A DNA stretch of 64,000 nt from Clostridiales bacterium (GTDB lineage Bacteria > Bacillota > Clostridia > Lachnospirales > Lachnospiraceae): positions 1 through 64,000 of the forward strand of contig DUNO01000065.1 in the NCBI GenBank assembly GCA_012839295.1, in the 5' to 3' direction. Positions 41,487 to 58,467 of the stretch are shown one piece after another. The position numbers and the translations under genes were made by a program. Under the pieces are notes generated by a model. It had not been told where the DNA came from, made no database searches, and was given only the letters and a program-made list of their open reading frames with translations. How positions within the stretch are numbered: the stretch's first letter is position 1; every line of letters begins with the position of its first letter.

Positions 41487-41505
41487 TTGGCAGAATGGGG
41501 AAGTG

Positions 41506-41606
41506 TGAAGGAAATAAAGTTAATGAACGAAGGGGGGACCGGGTTCATGCCAGCATTTTCCTGACGGTTTGTGAGGTAAAGGGGCAATGCCCATAATGAC
41601 GGGTAT
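41506..41606 (+). repeat. Dispersed repeat, copy A, feeding into a gene start
   Basis: About 100 bp nearly the same as 56197-56297. Over the 71-bp core from GAAGGGGGGA to ATAATGA I count 62 identities by hand. The repeat ends with one 18-bp unit (41583-41600) containing the ATG codons used by the next gene. Confidence 0.85.
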
Positions 41607-42084
41607 GAACATAATTATGGATATCGATAGAAGCTCAAGATCTTTTCGGATCGTTATGATAGAATGCATCCTGATGTTTGGTGTGTTTGCTGTAATGAGT
41701 GTCGTCATTGCGAAAATGTTTCTTTCGGCTGACCATATGTCAAAGGAAGCGGTGAGCTACAGCCAGGCGGTCATCCGGGCCGAGAACATAGCAGAGCGTC
41801 TCAAGGGCAGTGATTCTTTTGAAACCGTGCTTGTGGAGCTTGGGATGAAAAAGGTGGTAGAGGGAGACAGGAACCTTTACCAAGGGTATTATGGACGGGA
41901 TTGGGAACCGGCAAAGGATCGGGGTATGTATGAAATTACGGTTGATGTTGAAAAAACTTCCGGCAGCTTAGGGAATCTTGAAAAAGCGGAGATTGTAGCG
42001 GCAAGGGTCAAGAAACCTGCCGGTGGCGGTGAAGCTGCAGGTATCCTGTGCAGCCTGAACGTTAGTAAGTTCATCTATAACTAA
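41587..42084 (+). CDS. Pilin-like membrane protein whose start lies in a repeat
   Basis: A protein of up to 165 residues with one membrane segment (MIECILMFGVFAVMSVVIA). The Glu in VMIEC occupies a position like Glu5 of type IV pilins, and a helix continues after it, so it may be a divergent prepilin; the usual Gly before the cut site is absent. ATGs at 41587, 41596, 41605 and 41620 are all in frame and the first three lie inside the dispersed repeat; AAAGGGG at 41578-41584 may be the ribosome site for the second. The exact start is undecided. Confidence 0.7.
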   Translation: MPIMTGMNIIMDIDRSSRSFRIVMIECILMFGVFAVMSVVIAKMFLSADHMSKEAVSYSQAVIRAENIAERLKGSDSFETVLVELGMKKVVEGDRNLYQGYYGRDWEPAKDRGMYEITVDVEKTSGSLGNLEKAEIVAARVKKPAGGGEAAGILCSLNVSKFIYN

Positions 42085-42123
42085 CTTTGCAGGATGTTTA
42101 ATGATAGAAAGGAAATATCTGAT

Positions 42124-42612
42124 ATGGCCAGCAAGGGAAGCATTCGGTTAAATATTGGCGGAGCATCCATCATCGTAATACTGCTCACGCTTTCATTGAC
42201 AATATTTGCAATATTGTCAATCCGCACTTCTTACCATGAGCTGAAGCTGTCGGAAAAGACTGTGGGTAATGTGGAAGAGTATTACCAGGCGGATTCGAAA
42301 GCAGAGGAGATATTAATGCAGCTTGGAGAGCTGCTTTATCAGCTTAACTGGGATGGTTCCCAGGAACAATGGGAAAGGCTTATGTCCGGGGCGGCAAAGC
42401 TGGATGGGGTGGCCGGTATAAGCCGGCAGGAGGGACTCATTACATATGAGGTTATTATGAATGAGGCTTCCGTACTTAAGATAGAAGTAACTCCTGAAAT
42501 CAGGGCTTCTGTTCCGCATCTTTCGGTAATCAGCTGGAAAATGGTGACGGAGGAACAGGGGGATTATGATTCAAACAGCCTTGAAATCTGGGATGGCATA
42601 ATTGAGGAATAG
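42124..42612 (+). CDS. Pilus-operon membrane-anchored protein
   Basis: A 162-residue protein with one N-terminal membrane segment (ASIIVILLTLSLTIFAILSI), then a long predicted helix (SYHELKLSEKTVGNVEEYYQADSK as written in two halves) and a small beta domain, again the layout of a minor pilin without the Glu5 motif. I chose ATG 42124 with AGAAAGGAAA upstream; ATG 42094 is an alternative that adds ten residues. It ends 10 bp before the PilT-type gene. Family not recognised. Confidence 0.7.
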   Translation: MASKGSIRLNIGGASIIVILLTLSLTIFAILSIRTSYHELKLSEKTVGNVEEYYQADSKAEEILMQLGELLYQLNWDGSQEQWERLMSGAAKLDGVAGISRQEGLITYEVIMNEASVLKIEVTPEIRASVPHLSVISWKMVTEEQGDYDSNSLEIWDGIIEE

Positions 42613-42622
42613 GGAGGTAGCA

Positions 42623-43678
42623 ATGGAGCTGAGAGATATTCTATCGGATGCTGTTAACCAGAATGCATCTGATATTTTCCTGATTGCAGGAAGACCCGTA
42701 TCCTTTAAGATAAAAGGCGTGATTATACAGCAGGGTGATGATCGCCTGAAACCGGAGGACACCCTTTCGCTTGTAGATGAGATGTATACCATGTCTGGTG
42801 GCAGGGATGCGGGATTTAGGAAAGAGGGTGATGATGATTTTGCCATCTCATTGCCGGAGGTCGGGAGATTCCGTGTGAATATATATAAGCAAAGAGGTAC
42901 CTGGGGTGCAGTGCTGCGTGTGGTCGCATTTCAGATGCCCCTGCTGAAGGAGACGGGGATACCCCAGAGCGTTATTGAATTGGGTAATTTAACGAAAGGC
43001 CTGGTGCTGGTGACCGGTACTGCCGGAAGCGGCAAAAGTACCACCATGACTTATATTATTGATTACATTAATAAAAATAGAAATTGCCACATATTAACCC
43101 TTGAGGATCCAATTGAGTATTTACACAAGCATGGCAATAGTATTGTCAGCCAAAGGGAGATTGGTATCGATTCGCCTTCCTACAGCAAGGCGCTGCGGGC
43201 GGCTATGAGGGAATCCCCGGATGTTATTTTCATCGGGGAGATGAGGGACCATGAAACGATTGAGATTGCCATGACAGCTGCAGAAACAGGACATCTTGTG
43301 TTTTCCACCCTGCACACCATCGGGGCAGCGAATACGATTGACCGTATTATTGACGTCTTTCCCCCGAACCAGCAGCTGCAGATCCGTTTCCAGCTTTCCA
43401 TGGTGTTAAAGGGAATTGTGTCCCAGCAGCTGCTGCGCAGCAATGACGGCCTGGTACCGGCATTTGAGATATTGGAGGCCAATAGTGCAGTCAGGACCAT
43501 GATCCGTGACGGAAAGGTACATCAGATTGATTCCGTGATTCTGGCATCTTCCCATGATGGGATGAAATCAATGGACCAAAGTATCCTGGAACTATACCGG
43601 GCTAAGAAAATTGGTGCTGATACGGCATTGACCTACTGTATGAATATGGAGACTATGAAAAGGAACCTGATGATGTAA
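42623..43678 (+). CDS. PilT-type ATPase
   Basis: A 351-residue secretion ATPase of the twitching-motility branch. The P-loop is GTAGSGKSTTM near residue 133; the Asp box is EDPIEYLH, Walker B is IGEMRDHETI and the His box is GHLVFSTLHT. In PilT proteins the end includes conserved AIRNLIRE-like sequence; here a similar AVRTMIRDGKVHQI is present. PilT normally powers pilus retraction. GGGAGG lies 5 bp before ATG 42623. No PilB-type extension ATPase is encoded nearby, so this may be the only motor of the system. Confidence 0.92.
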   Translation: MELRDILSDAVNQNASDIFLIAGRPVSFKIKGVIIQQGDDRLKPEDTLSLVDEMYTMSGGRDAGFRKEGDDDFAISLPEVGRFRVNIYKQRGTWGAVLRVVAFQMPLLKETGIPQSVIELGNLTKGLVLVTGTAGSGKSTTMTYIIDYINKNRNCHILTLEDPIEYLHKHGNSIVSQREIGIDSPSYSKALRAAMRESPDVIFIGEMRDHETIEIAMTAAETGHLVFSTLHTIGAANTIDRIIDVFPPNQQLQIRFQLSMVLKGIVSQQLLRSNDGLVPAFEILEANSAVRTMIRDGKVHQIDSVILASSHDGMKSMDQSILELYRAKKIGADTALTYCMNMETMKRNLMM

Positions 43679-43716
43679 TTAACATAGATGATGGAAAAGA
43701 AGAATTTGTACTGGAA

Positions 43717-43764
43717 AGGCTATGCCTGCGCGGATCCGGTGCGCAATCTTTAGCTGCATAGCCT
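43717..43764. repeat. Hairpin before the transglutaminase gene
   Basis: AGGCTATGC (43717-43725) and GCATAGCCT (43756-43764) form a perfect 9-bp stem with an inner TGCGC/GCGCA stem. No T tract follows, and the ribosome site begins within 10 bp. It may be a terminator of the pilus unit or a 5' leader structure. Confidence 0.55.
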
Positions 43765-43789
43765 GGCACAAAGGAAGGTGAGTATAATT

Positions 43790-44608
43790 ATGAAAGAAAT
43801 CATAAGAAATGGAATTCGCGGTACAATATTTTTCCTGTTTTTATCGGCGTTTTTATACCTGCCTGCGGATAAGGCAATGGCGTCGGAATTCTTTAAGGAC
43901 AATGAAAACGGGGTTCTGACCGTAAGCTATAATAATAAGGATAATGCCAAGATCAAGGTAGGCGTTACCAAGGGCGGCAAAAGTTATTATTATGATCTTA
44001 AAAAGGGAAAAAACAATATTGATATTCCCCTGACCATGGGAAATGGAACCTATTCCATACGTATCTTTAAAAATGTCACAGGCAATAAATACAGTGTCCT
44101 TGAGAGCCAGGAATTTGAACTGGAGCTGCAAAATGAGGATGATGTATATCTGCATCCGAACGTAATTGTAAATTATGATATGGATTATGCCGCGGTCATT
44201 AAAGCGGGCCAGCTGACAAAAAACTGTAAGACGGAGGAAGAGAAGGTAAAGGCAGTCTATAATTTTGTGGTGAAAAACTTCAACTATGATTACGACAAGC
44301 TGGGGGATATCCAGTCAGGATATATTCCTGATATTAAGATTGTCTATAAAAATAAAAAGGGAATCTGCTATGATATCTCCGCCGTAATGGCATCAATGCT
44401 GCGCAGCCAGGGGATCCGTGTCAGGCTGGTGACCGGATATACGCCTAATATATCCGAATATCATGCCTGGAATATGATTTATGACAGCAAGAAAAAGAAA
44501 TGGTACACGGTGGATGCCACATATGATATTGGAAAACGTGCAGGCGGCCAAAAATACAGTATGGTGAAGAAGGCAAGTGAATATACGGATATACGCTATC
44601 GGTATTAA
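43790..44608 (+). CDS. Secreted transglutaminase-like protein
   Basis: A 272-residue protein with an N-terminal signal peptide (residues about 8-33, ending near KAMAS). The C-terminal half is a transglutaminase-like core: catalytic Cys in KKGICYDISAVMASML near 195, His in SEYHAWNMIY near 227 and Asp in YTVDATYD near 242. Members are cysteine peptidases or cross-linkers; the substrate is unknown. AAGGAAGGTG upstream supports ATG 43790 rather than the in-frame GTG 43778. It follows the pilus unit by 111 bp. Confidence 0.87.
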   Translation: MKEIIRNGIRGTIFFLFLSAFLYLPADKAMASEFFKDNENGVLTVSYNNKDNAKIKVGVTKGGKSYYYDLKKGKNNIDIPLTMGNGTYSIRIFKNVTGNKYSVLESQEFELELQNEDDVYLHPNVIVNYDMDYAAVIKAGQLTKNCKTEEEKVKAVYNFVVKNFNYDYDKLGDIQSGYIPDIKIVYKNKKGICYDISAVMASMLRSQGIRVRLVTGYTPNISEYHAWNMIYDSKKKKWYTVDATYDIGKRAGGQKYSMVKKASEYTDIRYRY

Positions 44609-44762
44609 GTATTAAAGGCAAAACACCAAAAATGTAAAAAATCCAAAAACGTCTTTTGGGTATTGCATAATAGGGATACCTATGCTATAATTAACAAGCT
44701 GTTTATTAGATTGGAAATATTCTGACCAATAGATAACGAATTGATCGTAAAGAGGTGAAATC

Positions 44763-44966
44763 ATGAAAGAAGGAATCCATCCCAAATATCATCAGGCTAA
44801 GGTTGTTTGCAACTGCGGTAACGAATTTGTAACAGGATCCACCAAGAGCGAAATCCACACTGAAATCTGCTCCAAGTGTCATTCATTCTACACAGGACAG
44901 GTGAAGGCTGCAGCTGCTCGCGGAGCGATCGATAAGTTCAACCGTAGATATGGTTTAAACAAATAA
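44763..44966 (+). CDS. rpmE: 50S ribosomal protein L31
   Basis: A 67-residue ribosomal protein. It is the zinc-binding C+ type, with Cys residues in VCNCGNEF and ICSKCHSF, so it should be the zinc-replete form. The start [16 protein letters not shown] is characteristic. AAAGAGGTG precedes the ATG. rpmE heads the common Clostridia order rpmE, DUF1385, prmC, prfA. Confidence 0.97.
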
Positions 44967-45061
44967 ATCGCAAAAGTGCTTGTAAGCAAACACGGAGGTG
45001 TTTGCGGGCAAATGCTTTGGTACGCGCTTTTCTTAGCATGAAAATTGAAACATAAAAAATT

Positions 45062-45093
45062 GGGTTGAGGTGTACTTCCTCAGCCTATTTTTT
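45062..45093 (+). terminator. Terminator after rpmE
   Basis: GGGTTGAGG (45062-45070) pairs with CCTCAGCCT (45078-45086), followed by six Ts. A smaller CCTGG/CCAGG stem with Ts follows at 45113-45129, and a GCAAACAC/GTGTTTGC stem precedes both at about 44984-45006. Confidence 0.85.
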
Positions 45094-45267
45094 GATATAC
45101 GCCTAATAAATGCCTGGGAGCCAGGTTTTATTTAAGAATGACGAATAAAGGATTTCTTATTGCATGATTAACAAAAGATAATAACTGCCAACAAATGCTT
45201 AAAGATAGAAACCAAAGTACCAGGTCACGAAAATGACCGAATTATGAAGAAAGGTCCGGGTGTAAAG

Positions 45268-46752
45268 ATGAAACCATCAGGTATTGGCGGTATGGCGGTC
45301 ATGGAAGGCGTCATGATGAAGAATAAGGACAAATACGCCGTGGCAATCCGCAAACCGAATAATGAAATTATAGTGGAAGAAAGTACGTATACTGATTTTT
45401 CCGATAGGGTGAAATTGTTTAAGCTGCCAATCTTTCGTGGGATGCTGGCTTTTGTTGATTCAATGGTAATGGGTGTCAAGGTATTAAATTTTTCAGCAAG
45501 CTTCCTGGAAGAGGAGGAAGAAGCAGCCTCCAAGGAAAAGAAAGATAAATCAAAAGGAAGGGCTGAAAAAAAAGCCCGGGAGTATGATGATGATTTTGAA
45601 ATAGATGAAGTTGCAGATAAGCTCTCCAAGGGGACAAAAAAGGGGACAAAGGCGGCTAAGGAGGAAAAGCCGGGCAGGAAGGGTGACAAGGGCAATGCAA
45701 TCCTGGTGGCGGTGGCAGTATTGTTCTCCATCGTTTTATCAGTTGCTTTATTTATGGTGCTTCCGGTATTAATTACGAATCTGCTCTCAGGAATTATCCC
45801 AGGCAAATATACGCTGGCCTTTTTGGAGGGTGTGCTCCGTCTGGCCATTTTTATCATCTATGTAATCATTGCGGCAAAAATGCCGGATATTAAACGCACC
45901 TTTATGTACCACGGTGCGGAGCATAAGGCGATTAACTGCCTGGAAAACGGATTTGAATTAACGGTTGAGAACGTCAAATGGCAATCCAAGCTGCATAAGC
46001 GCTGTGGAACCAGCTTTATGTTATTGGTAATTATTATCAGCTTATTTTTCTTTTTCCTGATGCCGGTGGAGGATCTTGTCCTGAGGATCATAAGCAGGGT
46101 GCTGCTGGTTCCGCTGATCGCAGGTATATCCTATGAATTCATCCGTTTTGCAGGAACCAGCGAGAGCAGGCTGGTACATATCTTAAGCCAGCCGGGTCTG
46201 TGGATGCAGGGATTGACAACGAAGGAGCCGGATGATGAAATGATTGAAGTCGCAATCCGGTCAGTTGGGGCGATATTTGATTGGGAGGCCTTTTTAGCAG
46301 ACCCTGCAGCGGATGATAAGAATAAAAATGTTAATAATAGTAAGAGTACCTCTTCCCGGAATTCCTCTTCGAGGGGAAGGAAAGCAATGGACCGGAAGGA
46401 GAGGGGCAGGGCAGATGCTGTGACTAAGGAAGTGTCTGCAATAATGGAGGGACCTGTGGCTAAGGAAGTGTCAGCAGCAGTGGAAGTACCTGTGGCTAAG
46501 GAAGTGTCAGCAGCAGTGGAAATGCCTGTAACCAGGGAAGGCTCCGCGGAGTGGGAAGTACCTGTGACCAGGGATGGCTCTGCGGCTAAGGAAGCTGGGT
46601 ATAGGGAACGGAATAGGCGTAACCGGGGAATAGCTCCAGTAGCCTTTAAACCGGTAATAAAGGATGAGACAGAGGAAGAAGATGATGAGATCCTCAAGGC
46701 TCTGGATAGATTCTTTGATGGTCAAAGAGGTGGAAAGCAGGACAATGATTAG
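45268..46752 (+). CDS. DUF1385 membrane protein with repeat-bearing tail
   Basis: A 494-residue protein. It begins with the family motif KPSGIGGMAVMEGVMMKNKD. An acidic/basic insert of about 60 residues (near 80-145, with EEEEEAASKEKKDKSKG) precedes four or more membrane segments between about 150 and 300, and the conserved YHGAEHKAINCLE and LHKRCGTSFML lie between them. The last 150 residues are a cytosolic low-complexity tail with 12-residue repeats. Most DUF1385 proteins have about 300-330 residues, so both inserts are extra. I prefer ATG 45268 because the family normally starts there; ATG 45244 has no ribosome site. Function unknown. Confidence 0.85.
   Translation: MKPSGIGGMAVMEGVMMKNKDKYAVAIRKPNNEIIVEESTYTDFSDRVKLFKLPIFRGMLAFVDSMVMGVKVLNFSASFLEEEEEAASKEKKDKSKGRAEKKAREYDDDFEIDEVADKLSKGTKKGTKAAKEEKPGRKGDKGNAILVAVAVLFSIVLSVALFMVLPVLITNLLSGIIPGKYTLAFLEGVLRLAIFIIYVIIAAKMPDIKRTFMYHGAEHKAINCLENGFELTVENVKWQSKLHKRCGTSFMLLVIIISLFFFFLMPVEDLVLRIISRVLLVPLIAGISYEFIRFAGTSESRLVHILSQPGLWMQGLTTKEPDDEMIEVAIRSVGAIFDWEAFLADPAADDKNKNVNNSKSTSSRNSSSRGRKAMDRKERGRADAVTKEVSAIMEGPVAKEVSAAVEVPVAKEVSAAVEMPVTREGSAEWEVPVTRDGSAAKEAGYRERNRRNRGIAPVAFKPVIKDETEEEDDEILKALDRFFDGQRGGKQDND
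46420..46595 (+). repeat. 36-bp coding tandem repeat in the DUF1385 gene
   Basis: About five units of a 12-residue motif close to PVAKEVSAAVEV. Units two and three are almost identical in DNA, the later ones have drifted (PVTREGSAEWEV, PVTRDGSAAKEA). The period is exactly 36 bp. Confidence 0.88.
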
Positions 46753-46772
46753 CGGACTTGCGGGGAAAATAT

Positions 46773-47603
46773 ATGAGTACTTATAAGGAGTTATTACAGA
46801 CAGGAAAGGAAATGCTGATAAAGCAGGGGATTGCAGATGCTGATATAGACGCATGGTATCTGTTGGCTCATGTTTTTAAGATAAATAGGATAGATTATTT
46901 GCTACGTGGGGATCAGGAGGCTTCCAGGGAGGAGGCCGGACGGTATATTTCCTGCGTGGAAGAAAGGGCAAAGCATGTCCCGTTACAGCATCTGACGGGA
47001 ACCCAGGAATTCATGGGACTGGAATTTGACGTAGGCAAAGACGTATTAATTCCACGGCAGGATACAGAGCTGCTGGTGGAGGAGGTTCTGAAGGTCTGCG
47101 CTGAAAAGTCCGTGCTTGATCTGTGCACTGGTTCCGGTTGCATCATCATCAGCCTTGCGAAGCTGGGTGGTTTAAAGTCTGCCTGTGGGGTGGATATCTC
47201 AGAGCCTGCCCTTGAGATAGCAAAGAGAAATGCAAAAAAGCTGGGGGCACCGGTGGAATTTTGGCTGGGTGACCTGTTCCAGCAGATTGAAAAAAGCTAT
47301 GATATTATTGTTTCCAATCCGCCGTATATCCGTACAAGCGTCATTGGGGAATTAATGCCGGAGGTAAAAGACCATGAGCCACATTTAGCACTTGATGGAA
47401 GTGAGGATGGACTTAAATTCTACCGCAGCATTGCGGCTGGAGCGAAGGAACATCTGTGTAAGGATGGATATCTTTTTCTTGAGGTCGGTTATGACCAGGG
47501 AAAGGATGTGGAGCATATACTTTTGAAGGAAGGATATGCAGAGGTTATGATAAAGAAGGATCTTAGCGGACAGGATCGTATCGCCTGTGCAAGGTTCATA
47601 TAA
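46773..47603 (+). CDS. prmC: Peptide chain release factor N5-glutamine methyltransferase
   Basis: A 276-residue methyltransferase that modifies the Gln of the GGQ motif in release factors. The SAM-binding motif is [16 protein letters not shown] and the catalytic NPPY motif is [12 protein letters not shown] near residue 182. The helical N-terminal domain contacts the release factor. GCGGGGA upstream supports ATG 46773. Its substrate RF1 is encoded 16 bp downstream. Confidence 0.95.
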
Positions 47604-47619
47604 TGGAGGAATCATTGTT

Positions 47620-48693
47620 ATGTTTGACAAGTTAGAGGATATTTTGGCCCGTTATCAGGAGCTGGAGCAGGAGTTAATGAATCCGGATGTCATGAACGAC
47701 CAAAACAGGTACCGTAACCTTCGTAAGGAGCATGCGGACCTGACGGATATTGTGGAGAAATATAAGGAATATAAAGCGGCGCAGGCCAATATCGAGGAGA
47801 GCCTGGCAATCCTGGAGGACGAAAGCGATGAGGAGCTGCGCGAGCTTGCTAAGGAAGAATTAAATGACAGCAAGCAAAATATCGTTAAGATTGAGGAGGA
47901 GCTAAAGATCCTGCTTCTTCCCAAGGATCCTAATGATGAGAAGAACGTTATCGTTGAAATCCGCGGAGGTGCCGGCGGCGATGAGGCAGCGCTTTTTGCG
48001 GCGGAATTGTACCGTATGTACGTGATGTATGCGGAACGTAACCGTTGGAAGATCGACATGATGAACTTAAACGAGAACGGTATCGGCGGATTTAAGGAAG
48101 TAATCTTTATGGTAATCGGTAAAGGTGCTTATTCAAAATTAAAATATGAGAGCGGTGTCCACCGTGTCCAGCGTGTGCCTGTGACGGAATCCGGCGGCAG
48201 GATCCATACATCAACTGCTACGGTTGCAATTATGCCTGAGGCAGAGGAGGTTGACGTGGCGCTGGATCTAAATGACTGTAAGTTTGACGTGTTCCGCTCC
48301 TCCGGTAATGGTGGACAGTGCGTTAATACTACGGACTCCGCTGTAAGGCTTACCCATATCCCGACGGGTATTGTCATTTCCTGCCAGGATGAAAAATCCC
48401 AGTTAAAGAATAAGGATAAGGCAATCCGTGTCCTGCGCTCCAAGCTGTATGAATTGGAGCTGGAAAAAGCCCAGAGCGCGGAGGCGGAGGCAAGAAAGAG
48501 CCAGGTAGGAACCGGTGACCGTTCCGAAAAAATCAGGACCTACAACTTCCCACAGGGACGTGTAACGGACCATAGAATCAAATTGACGGTCCATCAGCTG
48601 GGAGAAGTAATGAACGGAGATCTGGAAGAAATCATTGACAGCCTGATTGCAGCCGACCAGGCAGCGAAGCTGGCAAACCTGAATGCACAGTAA
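47620..48693 (+). CDS. prfA: Peptide chain release factor 1
   Basis: A 357-residue release factor recognising UAA and UAG. The codon-reading tripeptide region is [14 protein letters not shown] (P-x-T), and the catalytic loop is [16 protein letters not shown] near residue 230. ATG 47620 has ATGGAGG upstream. Encoded directly after prmC, whose product methylates the GGQ glutamine. Confidence 0.97.
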
Positions 48694-48700
48694 ATAGCCT

Positions 48701-49501
48701 ATGAAGAATAAAGATACCATTAGCAGTCTCAGTAATGCCCAGATAAAAAATTTAACCTTATTGCAAAAAAAAGCCAAGGCACGGGAGGAACAGGGAGTCT
48801 TTGTTGTAGAAGGCTGGAAGATGTTCGAAGAGGCTTTGGAATTGGGGTTGATGAAAAAGGCATATGTTGCAGAGACATTTTACCGGGAGCTGATAGCTGA
48901 AAAGCCGGATTATTTCCAGTCCTTTGACTATGAGATCCTGACGGATTCCGTGTTCAAAGAGGTGGCGGATACAAAAACACCCCAGGGGATCATGGGTCTC
49001 GTAAAAAAAAGAGAGCATAGCCTGGAGAGCATCATGAAAGCCCCGGGTGCCTGCCTTTTGTTATTAGAGGACATCCGTGATCCGGGAAATCTGGGAACGA
49101 TGCTACGGACTGCCGAAGGAGCAGGAGTGACGGGAATCATCTGCAACAGCTCAACCGTGGATTTATACAACCCAAAGGTAATCCGCTCTACCATGGGCTC
49201 CATTTACCGGATGCCCTTTTATCAGTCAGAGGATTTCCTTGGAACGGTCAATGAGATAAAAAAGCAGGGAATTACTATTTTTGCAGCCCACTTATCTGGG
49301 GAGTTCTACGATACGGAGGGAAGCTTTGTAAAGCCATGTGCATTTTTAATCGGGAATGAAGCAAATGGGCTGTCAGAAGAAGTATCAAGGGAAGCGGACC
49401 GCTTAATTAAAATTCCTATGGCCGGGAAGGTCGAGTCCTTAAATGCTGCTGTTGCAGCCGCAATTTTAATGTATGAAGCGGCAAGACAGAGAAGAAAATA
49501 A
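48701..49501 (+). CDS. SpoU/TrmH-type RNA 2'-O-methyltransferase
   Basis: A 266-residue SPOUT methyltransferase. An N-terminal substrate-binding domain (about 1-100) is followed by the three SPOUT motifs: NLGTMLRTAEGAGV, FLIGNEANGLS and IKIPMAGKVESLNAAVAAA, which form the trefoil knot for SAM. Members act on 23S rRNA or tRNA; the target is unknown. It starts 7 bp after prfA with a poor ribosome site, so it may depend on coupled translation. Confidence 0.9.
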   Translation: MKNKDTISSLSNAQIKNLTLLQKKAKAREEQGVFVVEGWKMFEEALELGLMKKAYVAETFYRELIAEKPDYFQSFDYEILTDSVFKEVADTKTPQGIMGLVKKREHSLESIMKAPGACLLLLEDIRDPGNLGTMLRTAEGAGVTGIICNSSTVDLYNPKVIRSTMGSIYRMPFYQSEDFLGTVNEIKKQGITIFAAHLSGEFYDTEGSFVKPCAFLIGNEANGLSEEVSREADRLIKIPMAGKVESLNAAVAAAILMYEAARQRRK

Positions 49502-49523
49502 GGTAAGCCAGGGAAAAGATAGC

Positions 49524-49564
49524 AGGAACCGGTCTTTATTACAGATGGATAGAGGCCGGTTCCT
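49524..49564 (+). terminator. Hairpin after the SpoU methyltransferase gene
   Basis: AGGAACCGGTCT (49524-49535) pairs with AGGCCGGTTCCT (49553-49564), nearly perfect; a T5 run follows eight bases later. Confidence 0.7.
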
Positions 49565-49585
49565 ATGGTTCTTTTTAGAAATTAC

Positions 49586-49614
49586 TTGACAAATCCCCAT
49601 AATTAGAATAATGT
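49586..49614 (+). promoter_or_regulatory. Promoter of argF
   Basis: A perfect TTGACA (49586-49591), a 17-bp spacer and TAATGT (49609-49614), about 160 bp before the argF start codon. Confidence 0.65.
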
Positions 49615-49619
49615 ATAAA

Positions 49620-49663
49620 TAAACACATATAAAGCATAATTATAAATGCGTTATGTGTGTTTT
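49620..49663. promoter_or_regulatory. Candidate ArgR operator at argF
   Basis: Just past the -10 box, GCATAATTATAAATGC (49634-49649) is a near-palindrome with an AT-rich core, like ARG boxes of ArgR/AhrC. It is flanked by AAACACATA and TATGTGTGTTT, extending the dyad to about 44 bp. Position at the transcription start fits repression by arginine. This is a motif judgment. Confidence 0.45.
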
Positions 49664-49772
49664 CACATTCCTGACCATAAGGAATGGAACTAACGGGAAG
49701 GATATAACCTGAAGCAATGCAGGTACATTATTATAATTTAATGCCGCAGAAAGCGGAGGAATGGAGGATTTT

Positions 49773-50708
49773 ATGAATTTAAAGGGACGCAGCTTTTTAA
49801 CCTTAAAGGATTTTACGGAGGAAGAGATAAGCTATTTACTTGATCTGGCAGCAGAATTAAAGGCGAAGAAAAAACAGGGCATTACAGGTGAAAGCCTGAA
49901 GGGTAAAAATATTGCCTTAATCTTTGAAAAGCCCTCAACCAGGACCCGCTGTGCATTTACCGTCGGATGTGTTGATGAAGGCGGGCACCCGGAATACCTG
50001 AGCAAGGCTGACATCCAGTTAGGCCATAAGGAGAGCGTGGAGGATACGGCAAGGGTGCTGGGAAGAATGTTTGACGGGATTGAGTTCCGTGGCTTTTCAC
50101 AGGATACGGTTGAAAAGCTGGCTAAATATAGCGGTGTCCCGGTATGGAACGGTCTTACTGACCTGGATCATCCGACGCAAATTCTTGCAGACTTCTTGAC
50201 TTTAAAAGAGCAGTTTGGTAAGCTTAAGGGACTAAAACTAGTCTATGTCGGTGATGGCCGCAATAACATGGCAAACAGCCTGATGATCGGTTCCGCCAAG
50301 ATGGGAATTCATTTTACGATTCTTGCACCGAAGTCCCTGTGGCCGGAGGAGAAACTGGTAGCCGAGTGCAAGGGCTATGCGGAGGAATCAGGAAGCCAGA
50401 TTGGGATATCGGATGATTTGGATGCAGTAAAGGATGCAGATGCAGTTTATACGGATGTATGGTGCTCCATGGGAGAAGAGGATAAGGCAGCAGAGCGTAT
50501 TGCCATATTGAAGCCTTATCAGGTGAATGAAGCCCTGATGGCCCGTACCGGGAAGGATACATCGGTTTTCCTCCATTGCCTGCCGGCAGTAAAGGGGAAA
50601 GAGGTCACCGAGGAGGTATTTGAGCGTTTTGCCGACGTTGTATTTGATGAGGCAGAAAACCGTATGCATACAATAAAGGCAGTTATGGTGGCAACACTAG
50701 GGAAATAG
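49773..50708 (+). CDS. argF: Ornithine carbamoyltransferase
   Basis: A 311-residue enzyme forming citrulline from ornithine and carbamoyl phosphate. The carbamoyl-phosphate loop is [11 protein letters not shown] near residue 50, [10 protein letters not shown] is near 132, and [11 protein letters not shown] near 265 holds the catalytic Cys. TGGAGG lies 7 bp before ATG 49773. No other arginine genes are adjacent. The gene may serve biosynthesis or the arginine deiminase route; the operator-like site favours biosynthesis. Confidence 0.95.
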
Positions 50709-50751
50709 GACAAGGAATGCAGTGCACATTTCCCTGCATAACGGTCTGGAA

Positions 50752-50791
50752 TACCCTCGGAAACCCGGCAGCAAGGGTGTTTCCGAGGGTA
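50752..50791 (+). terminator. Hairpin after argF
   Basis: TACCCTCGGAAAC (50752-50764) and GTTTCCGAGGGTA (50779-50791) form a perfect 13-bp stem. A T tract is missing, so termination may be partial. Confidence 0.65.
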
Positions 50792-50830
50792 CTTCCTAAT
50801 CTTGCAAGTAATTCTGGTGGGGTTATTATA

Positions 50831-51109
50831 ATGGACAAACGAAAGAAATGGTTCGAGGAGCTTTTAAAGAAAAATATTAAGATAAATACGGTGCTGGCAA
50901 TGGTTTTAGTCGTAGCCCTGTTCTTCTTTTACCTAAAGCCGGACAGCAAAATTGCTGTCCTGGTTGCCTGCTTTGCCGGAGGCTTTATGAATATGCTTAA
51001 CGGAATTCCTATGTGGAAGGATCCGGTAAAGAGGACAACGGGCATGAGTTATCTTTTGTTTGGTGCGGTTATTATAGCGCTTGGATTTATTATTATCCAG
51101 TATATCTAA
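50831..51109 (+). CDS. Small two-segment membrane protein
   Basis: A 92-residue protein with two or three hydrophobic segments (TVLAMVLVVALFFFYL; IAVLVACFAGGFMNML; YLLFGAVIIALGFIII) and a basic N-terminus (MDKRKKWFEELLKKN). Start ATG 50831 has GGTGGGG upstream; reading from 50717 would translate the hairpin. It begins a run of closely spaced genes to dusB. I do not recognise the family. Confidence 0.8.
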   Translation: MDKRKKWFEELLKKNIKINTVLAMVLVVALFFFYLKPDSKIAVLVACFAGGFMNMLNGIPMWKDPVKRTTGMSYLLFGAVIIALGFIIIQYI

Positions 51110-51132
51110 GGAGCTTTGGAGGGTTTTGTGCA

Positions 51133-51483
51133 ATGTATCAGGAAAAGGTGGTTTTGTGCGCAAGCAGCGCTTATGAGAAAAAGTTCTGGCTGAATGAGGA
51201 TTTTAAAGCACTGCCGGAGCAGATAAAACAGGAATTAAAGATTATATCCGTATTGTTTACGGAGGATGTGGGGGGAGTCCTTTCCCTGGAATTTGACGAG
51301 GACGGCACCTTGATGTTTAAAGTGGATTCGGATGAAAATGATTACCTCTATGATGAGATTGGCAGTGTATTAAAAATAAAGCAGCTGCAGAGGGAGAAGG
51401 CTGAACTGCTGGAGGCTTTGGAATTGTACTATAAGGTATTCTTTCTTGGGGAGGATGCTTCCGGGCTTTTAAGTGAGGAGTAA
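51133..51483 (+). CDS. Small conserved hypothetical protein (DUF6145-like)
   Basis: A 116-residue cytoplasmic protein, acidic, beginning [19 protein letters not shown] and containing [22 protein letters not shown] associate this with DUF6145, found before coaX in Lachnospiraceae, from memory. ATG 51133 has TTGGAGGG upstream. The gap to coaX is 26 bp. No function known. Confidence 0.75.
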
Positions 51484-51509
51484 AGCGTAGCAGGGAATGG
51501 AGGATTAAT

Positions 51510-52280
51510 ATGCTGCTGGTAGTTGATGTTGGAAATACAAATATAACCTTAGGGGTGTTTGAGAGGTCAGATATTAAGGCGACTTTTCGCCTGACCACCA
51601 ATGCGGACAGGACCTCAGATGAATACGGCCTGGTTTTGTGTGATTTATTAAAAGCGAAAAACATAGGTGTGGAACAGATAAAGAGTGTAATTATTGCCTC
51701 CGTTGTACCGAAGCTGATGCATTCCTTAACCTCAGGGATCATAAAGTACCTGAATCTTACGCCGTTGATTGTCGGTGCCGGTACAAAGACAGGAATCAAG
51801 GTCTCTACGGCAAATCCGAAGGAGGTTGGTGCAGACAGGGTGGTGGACGCGGTGGCGGCCTACGAGATCTATGGCGGCCCCGTATTGGTCATCGATTTTG
51901 GCACAGCCATTACCTATGACTTAATCCTGGAGGACGGAACCTTCCATGCGGCGGTTACCTGTCCGGGACTTCGGATTGCAGCCAATGCCCTTTGGGCAGG
52001 GACGGCAAAGCTGCCGGAGATAGAGATTGCGATGCCGGATACGGTCCTGGCGAAGGATACCATCACCAGCATGCAGGCAGGCCTCGTCTTTGGCTGTATC
52101 GGCCAGACTGAGTATATCGTGAAAAGAATGCTTAAGGAAGCCGGTATAGGGAGCTGCAGGGTGATTGCTACAGGGGGCTTGGGCAAGATTATTGCCGGGG
52201 CAACGGATGTCATCGAAATATATGATCCCCACTTAACCCTGAAGGGGCTAAAGATCATCAGTGACAAGAATAAGAAGTAG
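51510..52280 (+). CDS. coaX: Type III pantothenate kinase
   Basis: A 256-residue kinase of the ASKHA fold that starts coenzyme A synthesis by phosphorylating pantothenate. The three motifs are [12 protein letters not shown] at the start, [13 protein letters not shown] near residue 110 and [12 protein letters not shown] near 130. Type III enzymes are insensitive to CoA feedback and need a monovalent cation. GAATGGAGG precedes the ATG. Confidence 0.96.
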
Positions 52281-52294
52281 ATAATTGGAGAGGA

Positions 52295-53269
52295 ATGCAG
52301 ATGAGCCTGAATATCGGCAATGTAAAATTAGAAGGTAATTTGTTTTTAGGACCCATGGCAGGAGTAACAGACCTGCCTTTTCGTTTACTGTGTAAGGAAA
52401 AAGGTGCGGATTTAGTCTATACGGAGATGGTCAGCGCAAAGGGAATCCAATATAATAATAAAAATACGGAAAGCCTGCTTCAAATCCATGAGGAGGAGCG
52501 TCCGGTGGCATTACAGCTCTTTGGTGCGGATCCGGTTATCTTAAGTGAGACGGCTAAGCGCATTGAGGGCCGTAATTTTGATATCCTGGATATTAACATG
52601 GGATGTCCGGTGCCAAAGGTCGTAAATAACGGGGAGGGCTCGTCCCTGATGAAGAATCCCAGGTTAATCGGTGAAATTGTCAGTAAGGTATCCTCCGCAA
52701 TTAGCAAGCCCCTTACGGTAAAGATCCGCAAGGGCTTCCATGGGACGGACAATAATGCGGTGGAAGTAGCAAAGATTGCCCAGGAAAGCGGTGCGGCGGC
52801 GGTTGCGGTCCATGCGCGGACCAGGGAGCAGTATTACGGCGGAAAAGCAGATTGGGAAGTAATCCGTGCCGTAAAGGAGGCCTTGGCCATTCCGGTGATC
52901 GGAAGCGGGGATATCTTTACGCCGGAGGATGCAAAGCGTATGCTTGAGCAGACGGGCTGTGACGGGATCATGATGGCAAGGGGAACCAGAGGGAACCCTT
53001 GGATTTTCGAGCAAATTAAGGAATACCTGGAGCGGGGGATATTGATGCCGAAGCCAGGCTTTGATGAGGTGAAGGAGATGATTCTCCGCCATGCTGCATT
53101 ATCCGTGGAATACAAGGGAGAGTTTATCGGTATCCGGGAAATGAGAAAGCATGTGGCCTGGTATACAACGGGATATCCGGGCTCAGCCAGGCTAAGGAGC
53201 CGTGTCAATGAGATAGAGAATATGGAAGATCTCCGGCGTCTGCTGGAGGAGTACCAATACCATGTTTAA
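52295..53269 (+). CDS. dusB: tRNA-dihydrouridine synthase, DusB type
   Basis: A 324-residue flavin enzyme that reduces uridine in the tRNA D-loop. The FMN barrel begins with LGPMAGVTDLPFR, has the catalytic Cys in INMGCPVPKV near residue 104, VHARTREQYYGGKADW, and GSGDIFTPED with MMARGTRGNPWIF. The start is 52295 or 52301; both lie behind GGAGAGG. It follows coaX by 14 bp, a frequent pairing in Clostridia. Confidence 0.94.
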   Translation: MQMSLNIGNVKLEGNLFLGPMAGVTDLPFRLLCKEKGADLVYTEMVSAKGIQYNNKNTESLLQIHEEERPVALQLFGADPVILSETAKRIEGRNFDILDINMGCPVPKVVNNGEGSSLMKNPRLIGEIVSKVSSAISKPLTVKIRKGFHGTDNNAVEVAKIAQESGAAAVAVHARTREQYYGGKADWEVIRAVKEALAIPVIGSGDIFTPEDAKRMLEQTGCDGIMMARGTRGNPWIFEQIKEYLERGILMPKPGFDEVKEMILRHAALSVEYKGEFIGIREMRKHVAWYTTGYPGSARLRSRVNEIENMEDLRRLLEEYQYHV

Positions 53270-53346
53270 AATCACCAAAGGGACTGTGTGCAGGATGGAT
53301 TAATTATAAGATGTTCACAAAGTTCGATTAAAATATGAAAAAGTTG

Positions 53347-53374
53347 TTGATTTTTTCTGGATTTCGCGTATAGT
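53347..53374 (+). promoter_or_regulatory. Promoter of asd
   Basis: TTGATT (53347-53352), a 16-bp spacer and TATAGT (53369-53374), about 54 bp before the start codon. Confidence 0.55.
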
Positions 53375-53427
53375 ATATTTACAGAAAAGACAAATGTATG
53401 CCATACGTGAACAATGGAGGAATAAGA

Positions 53428-54510
53428 ATGAGCAAGTTAAGAGTTGGTATCCTTGGGGGTACAGGAATGGTTGGACAGCGTTTCATCTCGTTACTGGAAA
53501 ATCATCCTTGGTTTGAAGTAGTTACCGTTGCAGCAAGTCCCAGAAGTGCTGGAAAGACTTATGAGGAGGCAGTCGGTAACCGTTGGAAGATGGCAACTCC
53601 GATGCCTGAGAGTGTTAAGAAGCTGGTTGTAATGAACGTAAACGACGTGGAAGCAGTGAGTGCAGGCGTGGATTTTGTGTTCAGTGCCGTAGATATGACA
53701 AAGGATGAAATTAAAGCAATTGAGGAAGCGTATGCGAAGGCGGAGACCCCGGTGGTATCCAATAACAGTGCTCATAGATGGACTCCGGATGTTCCTATGG
53801 TAGTGCCGGAATTAAACCCGGAGCATTTAGAGGTAATTGCGGATCAGAGAAAGCGTCTTGGAACCCAGAGAGGTTTTATCGTAGTAAAGCCTAACTGCTC
53901 CATCCAAAGCTATACACCTGCCCTTCATGCCTTAAGGCAGTTTGGGATCAAGCTTGTGGTAGCCACTACCTATCAGGCGATCTCCGGTGCCGGCAAGAAC
54001 TTTGCAGATTGGCCTGAGATGGTTGACAATGTAATCCCATACATCGGCGGTGAGGAAGAAAAGAGCGAGCAGGAGCCGTTACGTATCTGGGGTAAGGTGG
54101 AAAATGGCCAGATCGTGAAGGCAGAAGGCCCGGTGATTACGACACAATGTATCCGTGTCCCTGTAACGGACGGACATACGGCGGCAGTATTCGTAAACTT
54201 TGAGAAAAAGCCTTCCAAGGAAGAAATCTTAAAGGCGTGGGCTGAGTTTAAGGGCATTCCCCAGGAGCTTGAATTGCCCAGCGCCCCGAAGCAGTTCATT
54301 AAGTACTTTGAGGAGGATAACCGTCCCCAGGCAAAGCTTGACCGTGATTATGAAAAGGGAATGGGCGTATGCTTCGGCAGATTGCGGGAAGACATAGTAT
54401 TTGATTATAAATTCGTCGGTCTTTCCCATAATACAGTCCGCGGCGCAGCAGGCGGCGCCGTATTGATCGCAGAGTTATTAAAGGCACAGGGATATATTAC
54501 TGCAAAATAA
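53428..54510 (+). CDS. asd: Aspartate-semialdehyde dehydrogenase
   Basis: A 360-residue enzyme making aspartate semialdehyde for lysine, threonine, methionine and diaminopimelate. The NADP site is GILGGTGMVGQRF at the start, the catalytic Cys lies in VKPNCSIQSYTP near residue 158, and the catalytic His is in VPVTDGHTAAV. Length and motifs fit the archaeal/fungal-type branch rather than the E. coli branch. ATG 53428 has ATGGAGG upstream. It stands alone with its own promoter and terminator. Confidence 0.94.
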   Translation: MSKLRVGILGGTGMVGQRFISLLENHPWFEVVTVAASPRSAGKTYEEAVGNRWKMATPMPESVKKLVVMNVNDVEAVSAGVDFVFSAVDMTKDEIKAIEEAYAKAETPVVSNNSAHRWTPDVPMVVPELNPEHLEVIADQRKRLGTQRGFIVVKPNCSIQSYTPALHALRQFGIKLVVATTYQAISGAGKNFADWPEMVDNVIPYIGGEEEKSEQEPLRIWGKVENGQIVKAEGPVITTQCIRVPVTDGHTAAVFVNFEKKPSKEEILKAWAEFKGIPQELELPSAPKQFIKYFEEDNRPQAKLDRDYEKGMGVCFGRLREDIVFDYKFVGLSHNTVRGAAGGAVLIAELLKAQGYITAK

Positions 54511-54549
54511 AAAACTATAGGGAATAGCTTAGAATAGATATAGATGAAT

Positions 54550-54580
54550 AAAAGAGCTCCGGCGTTGCCGGAGCTCTTTT
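54550..54580. terminator. Bidirectional terminator after asd
   Basis: AAAAGAGCTCCGGC and GCCGGAGCTCTTTT form a perfect 14-bp stem with a 3-nt loop; it separates asd from the convergent membrane-protein gene. Confidence 0.95.
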
Positions 54581-54593
54581 AAAAGGAAAGTTC

Positions 54594-55295
54594 TTATTTC
54601 AAGTCTTTAAAGAGGTAATGGATAAATTCAACCGTATTTTCTTTATGGGGATAATTTGCCACGATTCCGAGCACATAAGGTTCTCCGTCATAGGTGATAC
54701 CCTTAAATAAGTCAGAATCATTCAAATAAATACCGTAGGCATTCTTGTCCGGATCTCCGTTGGTATCGGACAGCAGGAAGCTGTCTGTCAGGGAGCTGTA
54801 GATATCCGTGGGAAGGGCTTCCGAAAGCTTGGTAAAATAGTCGTTACGCGCATAATTTAAAAATGAGGATTCCGGGGCGATGATAACATCAACCTCACGG
54901 GCAGCGATATAGGCGGTTAAGGCCTGCTGCATATTATAGTTATTGCCGCCGCTCATATAGAAGGTATCATTTATCTGGATATCCTCCAGCTTTGGGTCAA
55001 GGGCCAAATGGTCGGAGAATCCATTTGTATAGGCCTCTATGGTTTCCGGAGGAAGGGCATTATCGATAATGGCAGCGTAAAACTGGGTGCTGATGTTGGG
55101 AGTTACAACCTGGTAAATAACATAAATAATTACTGCAATCGCCAGTATCCCGCCTAACGCGTGAATTTTGTAGTATTCCCATAGATAATCCAGCTTCCCC
55201 ATCAGGGACATGTTCTTCAGTTTTTCTTTTTCGGAGGGAAGCTCCCTGGGTTGGTAAATGGTGACTGGTTCCTCCAGTCGGGACTGTTTCGGCAT
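54594..55295 (-). CDS. Single-pass membrane protein with extracytoplasmic domain
   Basis: A 233-residue protein: a 40-residue charged cytoplasmic part, one membrane segment (residues about 47-66, GGILAIAVIIYVIYQVV) and about 165 residues outside. The outer part reads like a small substrate-binding fold, with VDVIIAPESSFLNYARN and YVLGIVANYPHKENTVEFIHYLF, but this is only resemblance. No family name known to me. The start has AAGTGAGG upstream. Stands alone on the minus strand. Confidence 0.75.
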   Translation of the reverse strand: MPKQSRLEEPVTIYQPRELPSEKEKLKNMSLMGKLDYLWEYYKIHALGGILAIAVIIYVIYQVVTPNISTQFYAAIIDNALPPETIEAYTNGFSDHLALDPKLEDIQINDTFYMSGGNNYNMQQALTAYIAAREVDVIIAPESSFLNYARNDYFTKLSEALPTDIYSSLTDSFLLSDTNGDPDKNAYGIYLNDSDLFKGITYDGEPYVLGIVANYPHKENTVEFIHYLFKDLK

Positions 55296-55624
55296 AAAAA
55301 AACCTCACTTTAGTTTGCTATAATAATTCAGAGGGTAGCATAGCGTTTTCAAAGAGGTGTTATGCTGCCGCCTGAGGTCAAATTATGGAATGTGTAACTA
55401 TGGAATAGTGTATCACAATCGTTCCTGGAAAAAAAGAAATTAATTATAAAATATCTCTTAAATATATGGTCAAAGCAAGGAAGTGCAGCCCTATTATCTG
55501 CTTTAGGGTATGTGAATTCCATCCGAAAGCCTTAAATGCGTGCAAGTTATTGCAATAAAATTGCATTTCATGACATCCTTCTTCCAGAGCGATAATTTTG
55601 TGTATGATAATAAGAGCCACACTA

Positions 55625-55694
55625 TACAGAAAGTAAAGTCGTCTTTCTGTAATCATAACTTATATTACAGGAAGCAAATACATCTTCCTGTAAT
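55625..55694 (+). repeat. Array of four alternating complementary arms
   Basis: TACAGAAAG (55625-55633), CTTTCTGTAAT (55643-55653), ATTACAGGAAG (55664-55674) and CTTCCTGTAAT (55684-55694) follow each other; each can pair with its neighbours (the third and fourth perfectly over 11 bp, second and third with one mismatch). The array ends 17 bp before the ribosome site of the next gene. The rest of the 432-bp gap from 55296 holds nothing I recognise. Confidence 0.75.
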
Positions 55695-55727
55695 TATACT
55701 TACACTAACTGGAGGAGATGGATTATA

Positions 55728-56036
55728 TTGAATGCTATGTTGGAACGAAGGAAGTATATGTTATTGTTTGGGATCACAAGCATCTGTTTTGTATCTATGA
55801 TTTTTTTTCGATGCCTGAACGTACTTGATGGTATTACGGATAAGTTTTTCTTTTTATTATGTATTTTTATGCTTCTGCTATTGAATTTTATGAGAACAAG
55901 AGAAATGTCCGGTTTCGCGGAGGACCAGGATTTTGATGTCAGCCCGTATTCCAAAGCCTTATTGCTGACGATTCTGATAGGGGATCTGATCTATATCCTG
56001 TCTATTTTTTGTGAGTTTAAAAGTAAGGTTATGTAG
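55728..56036 (+). CDS. Small membrane protein with a TTG start
   Basis: A 102-residue protein with three hydrophobic segments (about 11-27, 38-55, 76-94) and a charged loop (RTREMSGFAEDQDFDVS). TTG 55728 lies 10 bp after GGAGGAG, while the first in-frame ATG (55737) is 19 bp away; the TTG is therefore preferred. I do not recognise the family. An array of inverted arms sits directly upstream. Confidence 0.6.
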   Translation: MNAMLERRKYMLLFGITSICFVSMIFFRCLNVLDGITDKFFFLLCIFMLLLLNFMRTREMSGFAEDQDFDVSPYSKALLLTILIGDLIYILSIFCEFKSKVM

Positions 56037-56196
56037 AGGGTATTACTATAGAACATAATCGTATTACCATATTTCGGCCCTGGCAGTCCGTACTTGGTTG
56101 GTGGTAAAATAGGATTGCTTAAATTGCGGCTGGTATTTTTTTTACAAGTGCTGTATAGTTAAGATTGTGTATATGAAAGAAATAGAGAGAAAAAGT

Positions 56197-56345
56197 TGAA
56201 AGAAATAGAATTAATAGATGAAGGGGGGATCAGGTCCATGCCAGCACTTTCATGACGGTTTGTGCGGTATAAGGGCAATGCCCGTAATGATGGCAATGTC
56301 CGTAATAAGGGCAATGCCTATAATGATGGCAATGCCCATAATGAT
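56197..56345 (+). repeat. Dispersed repeat, copy B, with fourfold 18-bp expansion
   Basis: The first 100 bp match copy A at 41506-41606. The last 18-bp unit, single in copy A, is present here four times in tandem (56274-56291, 56292-56309, 56310-56327, 56328-56345), each close to GGCAATGCCCATAATGAT. The period equals six codons, so an ATG-rich frame (MPVMMA type) stays open into the following gene. Confidence 0.88.
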
Positions 56346-56361
56346 GGGCATGGACGTATTT

Positions 56362-58155: not shown

Positions 58156-58231
58156 ATTTCAGCTGCCACAGGAAAAGAATATTGACATAGAAAAATAATT
58201 GTGATAGTCTTTAAGTAAATTGAATATTAAG

Positions 58232-58385
58232 CAATAAGGTGCCGGTATTTTTGCCGGATAATAGGGAATGTGAAAAGCACAACAGCCCCCGCTACTGTAG
58301 GATATGACGAGTCTTTTAAAAAGCCACTGGGCATTCTGCCTGGGAAGGAAAAAGACGAGGAAGATTATGAGTCAGGAGACCTGCC
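58232..58385 (+). promoter_or_regulatory. Cobalamin (B12) riboswitch
   Basis: The conserved blocks of the class are readable in order: AAGGTGCC, ATAATAGGGAA, CCCCCGCTACTGTA (58286-58299), AAGCCACTGG (58320-58329), TGGGAAGG (58341-58348), GACGAGGAAGATTATGAGTCAGGAGACCTGCC (in two parts, 58353-58385). It precedes a BtuF-type gene, and a terminator follows, so adenosylcobalamin would stop transcription. Confidence 0.96.
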
Positions 58386-58467
58386 TTTTTGCTCAAGGTT
58401 AATTCTCGGAGGGAGGATAGAAAACTTGGTTCAGATTTTGGTACATCTTTGTAGTACCATTCTATTT

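Follow-up and report, generated by a model that had tools for sequence, protein, structure and literature searches.

The cited passages on short bacterial repeats describe miniature inverted-repeat transposable elements (MITEs) as bounded by inverted repeats and flanked by target-site duplications; the BOX, RUP and SPRITE repeats of pneumococci are described as over-represented between convergent genes (PMC3049150, PMC10969869). Rickettsia palindromic elements are described as lying, in about half of the cases, in frame inside genes (PMC10969869). Here, we characterized a dispersed repeat of a Clostridiales bacterium (Lachnospiraceae, assembly GCA_012839295.1), two copies of which, A and B, lie in a stretch of 64,000 nucleotides (nt) of contig DUNO01000065.1, referred to as the window. 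Most copies end 3 nt before an ATG. We consider it likely that the repeat is a small non-autonomous mobile element that inserts at start codons and brings with it a portable translation-start region.

The first-pass annotation of the window had proposed a small mobile repeat at the starts of unrelated genes, and a search of the genome for further copies found many. With copy B as the query, blastn returned 41 matches, one of just 17 nt, in the window's genome (G000; 6.36 Mb in 82 contigs). A covariance model trained on 23 short copies, 18 from G000 and 5 from its closest relative by MurG, G012, gave 92 matches in G000 at E<=1. We analyzed 87 of these and set aside five, one with another interior (C77:122618) and four truncated or doubtful (C33:204275, C12:190649, C72:44325, and C69:80390). 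Tables of 86 copies additionally omit C69:39308, dropped by length, and alignments A1 and A2 exclude the chimera L054 and the G012 copy L073.

With copy limits set by the covariance model and a right-end rule, the element runs from AGGTTGAAAG to GGACATA. The short form of about 92 nt accounts for 58/86 copies and has the consensus AGGTTGAAAGAAATAAAATTAATnAACGAAGGGGGGACCGGGTCCATGCCAGCACTTTCATGGCGATTTGTGCGGTAAAGGGCATGGACATA, in which a purine run is followed about nine bases on by an ATG opening MPALSWRFVR; this leader frame stops near ATGGACATA (with TAA in the short-form consensus), and an in-frame ATGGACATA-NNN-ATG spans the junction of element and gene. The first element codon is TTG or GTG in 53/86 copies, and positions 5 to 7 form a stop in 64/86 (TGA 54, TAA 8, TAG 2). 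The remaining 28 copies are long (109-166 nt) and carry an additional GGGCAATGCCCGTAATGAT-like unit, one to four times per copy. An expansion by six codons had been taken as the main theme of the repeat, a view that the family does not support: 58 of the 86 copies have no unit, and 24 of the 28 long ones measure 109-114 nt, the others being 129, 130, 150, and 166 nt. The 18-bp expansion is a minor variant, for which the earlier frame logic holds. Identity to the nearest copy has a median of 91% and reaches 97% outside a tandem array, which suggests a fairly recent spread.

The position of the copies is regular. In 65 of the 87 an ATG lies exactly at +4 to +6 past the right end, against a background ATG rate of 2.2% per position in the window and the element loci, and 60 of the 65 ATGs begin frames at least 90 codons long. 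Within the next 130 nt, 82/87 copies have a gene start on their own strand, compared with 7/87 on the opposite strand and 159/1263 for random positions. The five full-length copies examined in G012 likewise lie 3 nt before an ATG. The consensus target, A^ANYATG, exceeds the ordinary start context, as judged with crude gene calls: A stands immediately before the junction in 46/65 sites (71%) versus 37/118 (31%) of the crude Shine-Dalgarno (SD)-ATG starts (Fisher p 5e-7), A stands immediately after it in 51/65 (78%) versus 45/118 (38%; Fisher p 2e-7), and G precedes the ATG in 0/65 sites.

This regularity could in principle reflect random insertion filtered by selection, with only harmless start-site copies surviving. 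Copies inside genes would indeed be lost, and the one copy found in a genome of another genus (G290) has, 3 nt past its end, an ATG at which no gene starts, as such filtering would allow. However, the exact 3-nt spacing in 65/87 copies speaks against filtering. So do the 22 copies without an ATG at +4, 14 of which have a triplet one step from ATG in the same place (ATA 4, ACG 3, AGG 2, AAG 2, CTG 2, GTG 1), where 9 of 64 triplets qualify; both CTG cases sit inside a three-copy head-to-tail array on contig C14. The ATA of locus L016 is also present in the empty G012 site, so the motif seems to be read and not merely selected. Finally, the start codons at +4 that open at least 90 codons are 60 ATG, 0 GTG, and 0 TTG, while GTG or TTG makes up 45/163 of the crude SD start set, a share that the SD-first rule may overcount. 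We regard random insertion with selection as quite unlikely.

Because GTG and TTG starts are unused and the G290 copy lies away from any start (ATT-ATG follows it where an antisense gene ends, and it is antisense to both neighbors), the enzyme seems to read the sequence A^ANYATG. A ribosome reading the start codon as such was also considered and is disfavored, as GTG/TTG starts are unused and near-ATG sites that are not starts are used. Left flanks carry an SD-like match of at least 5 nt in 35/86 copies versus 15% of control 18-mers, and in the window the motif A^ANYATG occurs at 4 start sites, 28 intergenic sites, and 68 coding sites by the crude gene calls. The SD-like flanks and the excess over intergenic motif sites show an added preference or selection for true starts. 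Together with the orientation bias, the SD-like flanks would also suit targeting through RNA, that is, insertion into the initiation region of an mRNA followed by reverse transcription, for which G000 offers one intact group II intron reverse transcriptase. That route leaves the unused GTG/TTG starts and the position of the G290 copy unexplained; furthermore, no group II domains were found in the two element loci searched (Rfam; L003 and L058), and the only reverse transcriptase match of G012 sits in a frame of 1532 residues, unlike the 470 residues of the G000 protein. We consider the RNA route very improbable.

Comparison with G012 revealed empty sites. The ortholog test covered the 42 first-located of the 87 copies; a usable downstream gene was available for 41 of the 42, and 39 of the 41 segments went into a single query, MurG having been searched earlier and L054 left out. 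The test yielded 23 orthologous pairs, and the element core was present in 0/23 G012 sites. Nine of these sites are gap-free within 14 bases of the junction, with zero duplication, L008 has a single gap ascribed to one surplus base in that copy, and the orthologous site of copy B (L143) is element-free with one gap close to the junction; for copy A, an ortholog of the locus was looked for in G012 and none was found. Summed over the 23 sites, the alignment score peaks at the boundaries given above (1887, versus 1882 and 1861 one base off). For example, G000 joins the element to GGAATACTTAA-ATTATG where G012 has GGAATACTGAAATTATG, and GTGATTA-AGCATG of G000 corresponds to GTGATTAAGCATG. Upstream of the gene we take to be murG, from our reading of its protein, 30 of the 34 genomes of the genus were read and only G000 has the element core; there the upstream gene retains its exact codon number.

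The flanks of the element are not repeated. Tested at 2-8 nt against mismatched flank pairs, target-site duplications were not found (2-nt repeats in 9/86 copies versus 8.7% of mismatched pairs, 4-nt repeats in 3/86 versus 1.7%), and terminal inverted repeats were not found when the first 10 nt were compared with the reverse complement of the last 10 (at most four matches in 84/86). Since the G012 sites are empty, the flanks unrepeated, and the ends not inverted, insertion occurs without duplication, mostly in the spacer between SD and start. The comparisons thus show the element as a clean insertion at A^ANYATG with a strong orientation bias. Taken together, the 92 matches, the absence of filled sites among the 23 compared in the sister species, and the 3-nt spacing to ATG in 65/87 copies strongly support the proposal of a small mobile repeat providing unrelated genes with their start regions.

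The same sites speak to the possibility that the element is a domesticated translational regulon, a structured RNA leader with the start codon in a helix (P1, below), through which dozens of genes are regulated together and which persists for this function. Its fixed place, its orientation bias, the helix holding the start codon, and the strong excess at gene starts over the window's motif sites are what such a leader would display. However, none of the 23 comparable sites is conserved in the sister species, which has just six copies by blastn, and the few targets inspected are unrelated (a MurD-like ligase, a peptidase U32, the CPBP protease, and murG). In addition, no Rfam family matched among the copies searched, with no match at the gathering score over either window copy, and some copies have decayed. 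A regulon of this kind therefore appears unlikely.

Carriers found are G000, G012 (six blastn matches, five full length), and G290 (one copy). A blastn search over 61 genomes (34 of the genus, G000 included) gave matches in two, and model searches of 392 genomes of the order and 397 of the family gave two each, G000 and G290; these two samples overlap, and with stricter filters and few candidates scored per genome weak copies can be missed. A 23-base pattern, which fits 26/43 of the genome's own copies, had no match in viral contigs, and a distant blastn search of plasmids and phages with one short copy had none either. Scanning genome contigs with this pattern, own genome excluded, gave 13 matches. 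One of them (L086, from a Herbinix metagenome-assembled genome) is a true element and represents the same copy as L065 of G012, and G012 corresponds to this Herbinix assembly by an identical stretch. Four others (L087, L093, L084, and L092) gave weak partial nhmmer matches only, and the other eight had no nhmmer match at 1e-3.

The anatomy of the element suggests what it brings to its target. All 60 of 60 copies at gene starts have, 12 nt ahead of the ATG of the gene and in frame with it, a start codon (58 ATG, 2 GTG) whose use would add M-D-I-x to the protein. Given the purine run, the short upstream frame, and the in-frame ATGGACATA-NNN-ATG, the element probably takes over translation initiation. 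The first-pass annotation had called the repeat a translation-start module; the anatomy fits this part of its proposal, and the function itself is putative. Of 16 long upstream frames that continue into the element, 11 enter it in ATGA-overlap phase. The predicted helix P1 pairs CCATGCC with GGCATGG. Together with an inner helix of our choosing, 92.6% of the cells in the 23 short copies are paired, versus 90.3% in shuffles (0/500) and 19-44% when slid, and nine cells are changed on both sides; the inner helix selected by RNAalifold itself gives 95.7% paired and eight such cells.

We hypothesize that a recombinase acting in trans would catalyze the exchange. The junction of a circularized element would read ACATA^AGGTTG, and the A^A common to this junction and the target suggests strand exchange at a 2-bp core with a circular intermediate. 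After insertion, the native SD would face the first element codon, and the purine run of the element would load ribosomes onto the short upstream frame, MPALSWRFVR. This frame would end next to ATGGACATA-NNN-ATG, which shares the reading frame of the gene's ATG. Its translation would open helix P1, where that ATG lies, and ribosomes would start again on the gene, adding the four residues to its product. Where two genes overlap as ATGA, the left-end stop would stand in for that of the upstream one. The element could thus keep both neighboring genes readable, which could let it sit before genes such as murG. In its full form the proposal is of an element class with the translation start as its attachment site, in which a recombinase would link a 92-nt circle to A^ANYATG between SD and start codon, the element surviving through a portable two-step initiation region that takes over the start of the gene and stands in for the stop of the gene overlapping it upstream; we advance it tentatively, at a little under even chances.

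Several observations weigh against these readings. The 22 copies without an ATG at +4 depart from the rule, 14/23 orthologous sites do not align gap-free, and among the nine that do the boundary used here is the best alone in six, tied in two, and one base off in one. The first element codon is TTA in 9/86 copies and CTG in 8/86. Several leaders are frame-shifted or stopped early, including both window copies (five residues each), and selection on codon positions gave no signal (0.121, 0.114, 0.167), so that sequence or RNA would be conserved and not the peptide. Selection on the leader peptide was accordingly rejected. Of the nine compensatory cells, five represent a single shared C-G to U-A change, and five copies folded one by one gave minimum-energy structures of ordinary stability (z -1.65 to +0.32); with such fold energies, the RNA structure is plausible rather than proven. 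Among enzymes, Y1_Tnp (PF01797) has 0 matches in G000 and 3 in G012, IS110 has none in G012 and one 224-residue frame in G000, and RVT_1 in G000 matches one group II intron protein plus a fragment. None of Y1_Tnp, RVT_1, and IS110 is a good fit to both carriers, no search having been made for serine or tyrosine recombinases.

These enzyme results bear on a further possibility, that the element is a non-autonomous derivative moved by a REP/IS200-IS605-like, IS110-like, or serine recombinase. IS110/IS621 bridge-RNA transposons combine a sequence-directed target with a 2-bp core, and the common A^A core would suit an exchange of the IS110 or serine-recombinase style. The missing target-site duplication, the orientation bias, and the hairpin agree with this origin. 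Nevertheless, Y1_Tnp was not found in G000 and IS110 not in G012, the serine recombinases lying outside the search, and we consider an origin of this kind unlikely. Elsewhere in G000, L224 836-1129 contains domains of a group II intron together with an intact frame for a reverse transcriptase; a string resembling the element's right end in this locus was judged a chance occurrence upon reading the locus.

In the window, copies A and B are 81% identical over 110 positions by blastn (E=4.9e-23), a likeness well past what chance would give. Compared ungapped from 41506 and 56197, 59/71 positions are identical, near the 62/71 claimed at first, and the 18-bp unit is, as had been noted, single in A and fourfold in B. 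Both copies had been described as running into the 5' ends of genes. For copy B this stands, the CPBP gene starting at 56362 with a product that matches the Rce1-like Pfam family PF02517 (E=5.5e-22). For copy A, we infer that the native start is at 41617, 3 nt past the element, and not at 41587 inside it; the pilin-like protein has no Pfam family at E<=0.01. The purine run of copy A falls in a well conserved region of alignment A1, and helix P1 was counted on the 23 short copies, a set that does not contain copy A. The features are listed below.

Table 1. Features of element copies A and B and their target genes in the window.
Feature	Position	Strand	Sequence or description	Basis
Copy A, long form	41502..41613	+	112 nt	covariance model match and right-end rule
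Copy A, termini			AGTGTGAAGG...GAACATA	
Copy A, SD-like purine run	41530..41537	+	AAGGGGGG	sequence; putative function
Copy A, helix P1 5' arm	41544..41551	+	TTCATGCC	sequence; predicted helix
Copy A, upstream reading frame	41547..41564	+	MPAFS then TGA	
Copy A, 18-nt unit	41583..41600	+	GGCAATGCCCATAATGAC, single	sequence
Copy A, helix P1 3' arm	41602..41609	+	GGTATGAA	sequence; predicted helix
Target gene A	41617..42084	+	pilin-like, from putative native ATG	
Copy B, long form, three units more than copy A	56193..56358	+	166 nt	
Copy B, termini			AAGTTGAAAG...GGACGTA	
Copy B, SD-like purine run	56221..56228	+	AAGGGGGG	sequence; putative function
Copy B, helix P1 5' arm	56235..56242	+	TCCATGCC	sequence; predicted helix
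Copy B, upstream reading frame	56238..56255	+	MPALS then TGA	
Copy B, 18-nt units	56274..56345	+	four in tandem	Tandem Repeats Finder (TRF): 4.1 units over 56274-56347
Copy B, helix P1 3' arm	56347..56354	+	GGCATGGA	sequence; predicted helix
Target gene B	56362..57270	+	CPBP / Rce1-like membrane protease, ATG 3 nt past element	

Some copies in G000 have unusual forms. L171 (C14:1751-2026) consists of three copies head-to-tail without gaps. L206 (C33:204275-204315) and L208 (C12:190649-190690) are remnants of 41-42 nt that keep the left end and the purine run, have lost the stem, and adjoin an ATG; they are possibly internal deletions that would restore a simple SD-ATG. In the second match of L198 / L013 (C77:122618-122708), the interior is replaced by TTCATAGAATTCTGTG-like repeats, yet the copy ends GGGCATGGATAGA-ATT-ATG.

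A second repeat, AAGTGTGAAGAGAAATTCTAAGG, lies within a 204-nt query that gave 23 matches at E<=1. This second family, seen in G000 at L024, L028, and L229-L241, is a dispersed, modular hairpin repeat of about 130 nt. By eye, its copies often begin after SD-like flanks; in some loci they are joined to the main element, and L054 is a chimera of the two. Its left end resembles that of the main element, and at L234 a copy ends GGCATGGGTATA-GCT-ATG, with the same right end as the main element, at the start of a presumably argC-like gene, a label from our own reading of the sequence. This likeness suggests that the two families belong to a larger group of elements that share their ends, so that different interiors may be integrated by one route. 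Elsewhere in the window, a cobalamin riboswitch (58220-58402, + strand; Rfam RF00174, 114.9 bits) precedes a gene that reads like a substrate-binding lipoprotein, and 22296-22745 holds a large 18/36-bp tandem array with a sequence unlike the element.

If the proposal is true, the element is a natural portable initiation cassette, which would account for its presence before important genes; systematic misannotation of N termini would be expected, and the target choice would hint at an undescribed recombination route that recognizes start sites. In searches of open-access papers, judged by title and the start of the abstract, no mobile repeat was tied to start codons; within the library and terms of that survey, the target choice is unmatched by other mobile repeats.

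Set against the systems described in the cited passages, the element resembles MITEs and the BOX, RUP, and SPRITE repeats in being short and enzyme-less, with many dispersed copies, secondary structure, and the ability to create reading frames; of the MITE-like traits, it is short, multi-copy, recently mobile, and without an enzyme gene. It differs from MITEs as they are portrayed there in its lack of terminal inverted repeats and target-site duplication, and from BOX, RUP, and SPRITE in lying at start codons and not between convergent genes. IS607 is reported to share the absence of inverted repeats and target-site duplication (PMC6188088); unlike IS607 and IS110/IS621, the element has no such enzyme or guide RNA tied to it. 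Enterobacterial RU elements with open reading frames are mobile repeats, too, and contribute residues to the genes with which they become fused, with TA duplications and, in the passages concerned, no fixed place at start codons named (PMC2759123). The Rickettsia palindromic elements are also small repeats with a conserved peptide (PMC10969869); unlike them, the element lies upstream of the start codon, 60/87 copies directly before the ATG of a gene-sized frame. The synthetic bicistronic designs are engineered and not mobile, unlike the element, and they have in common with it a short leader frame ahead of a second start (PMC5995908, PMC10367133).

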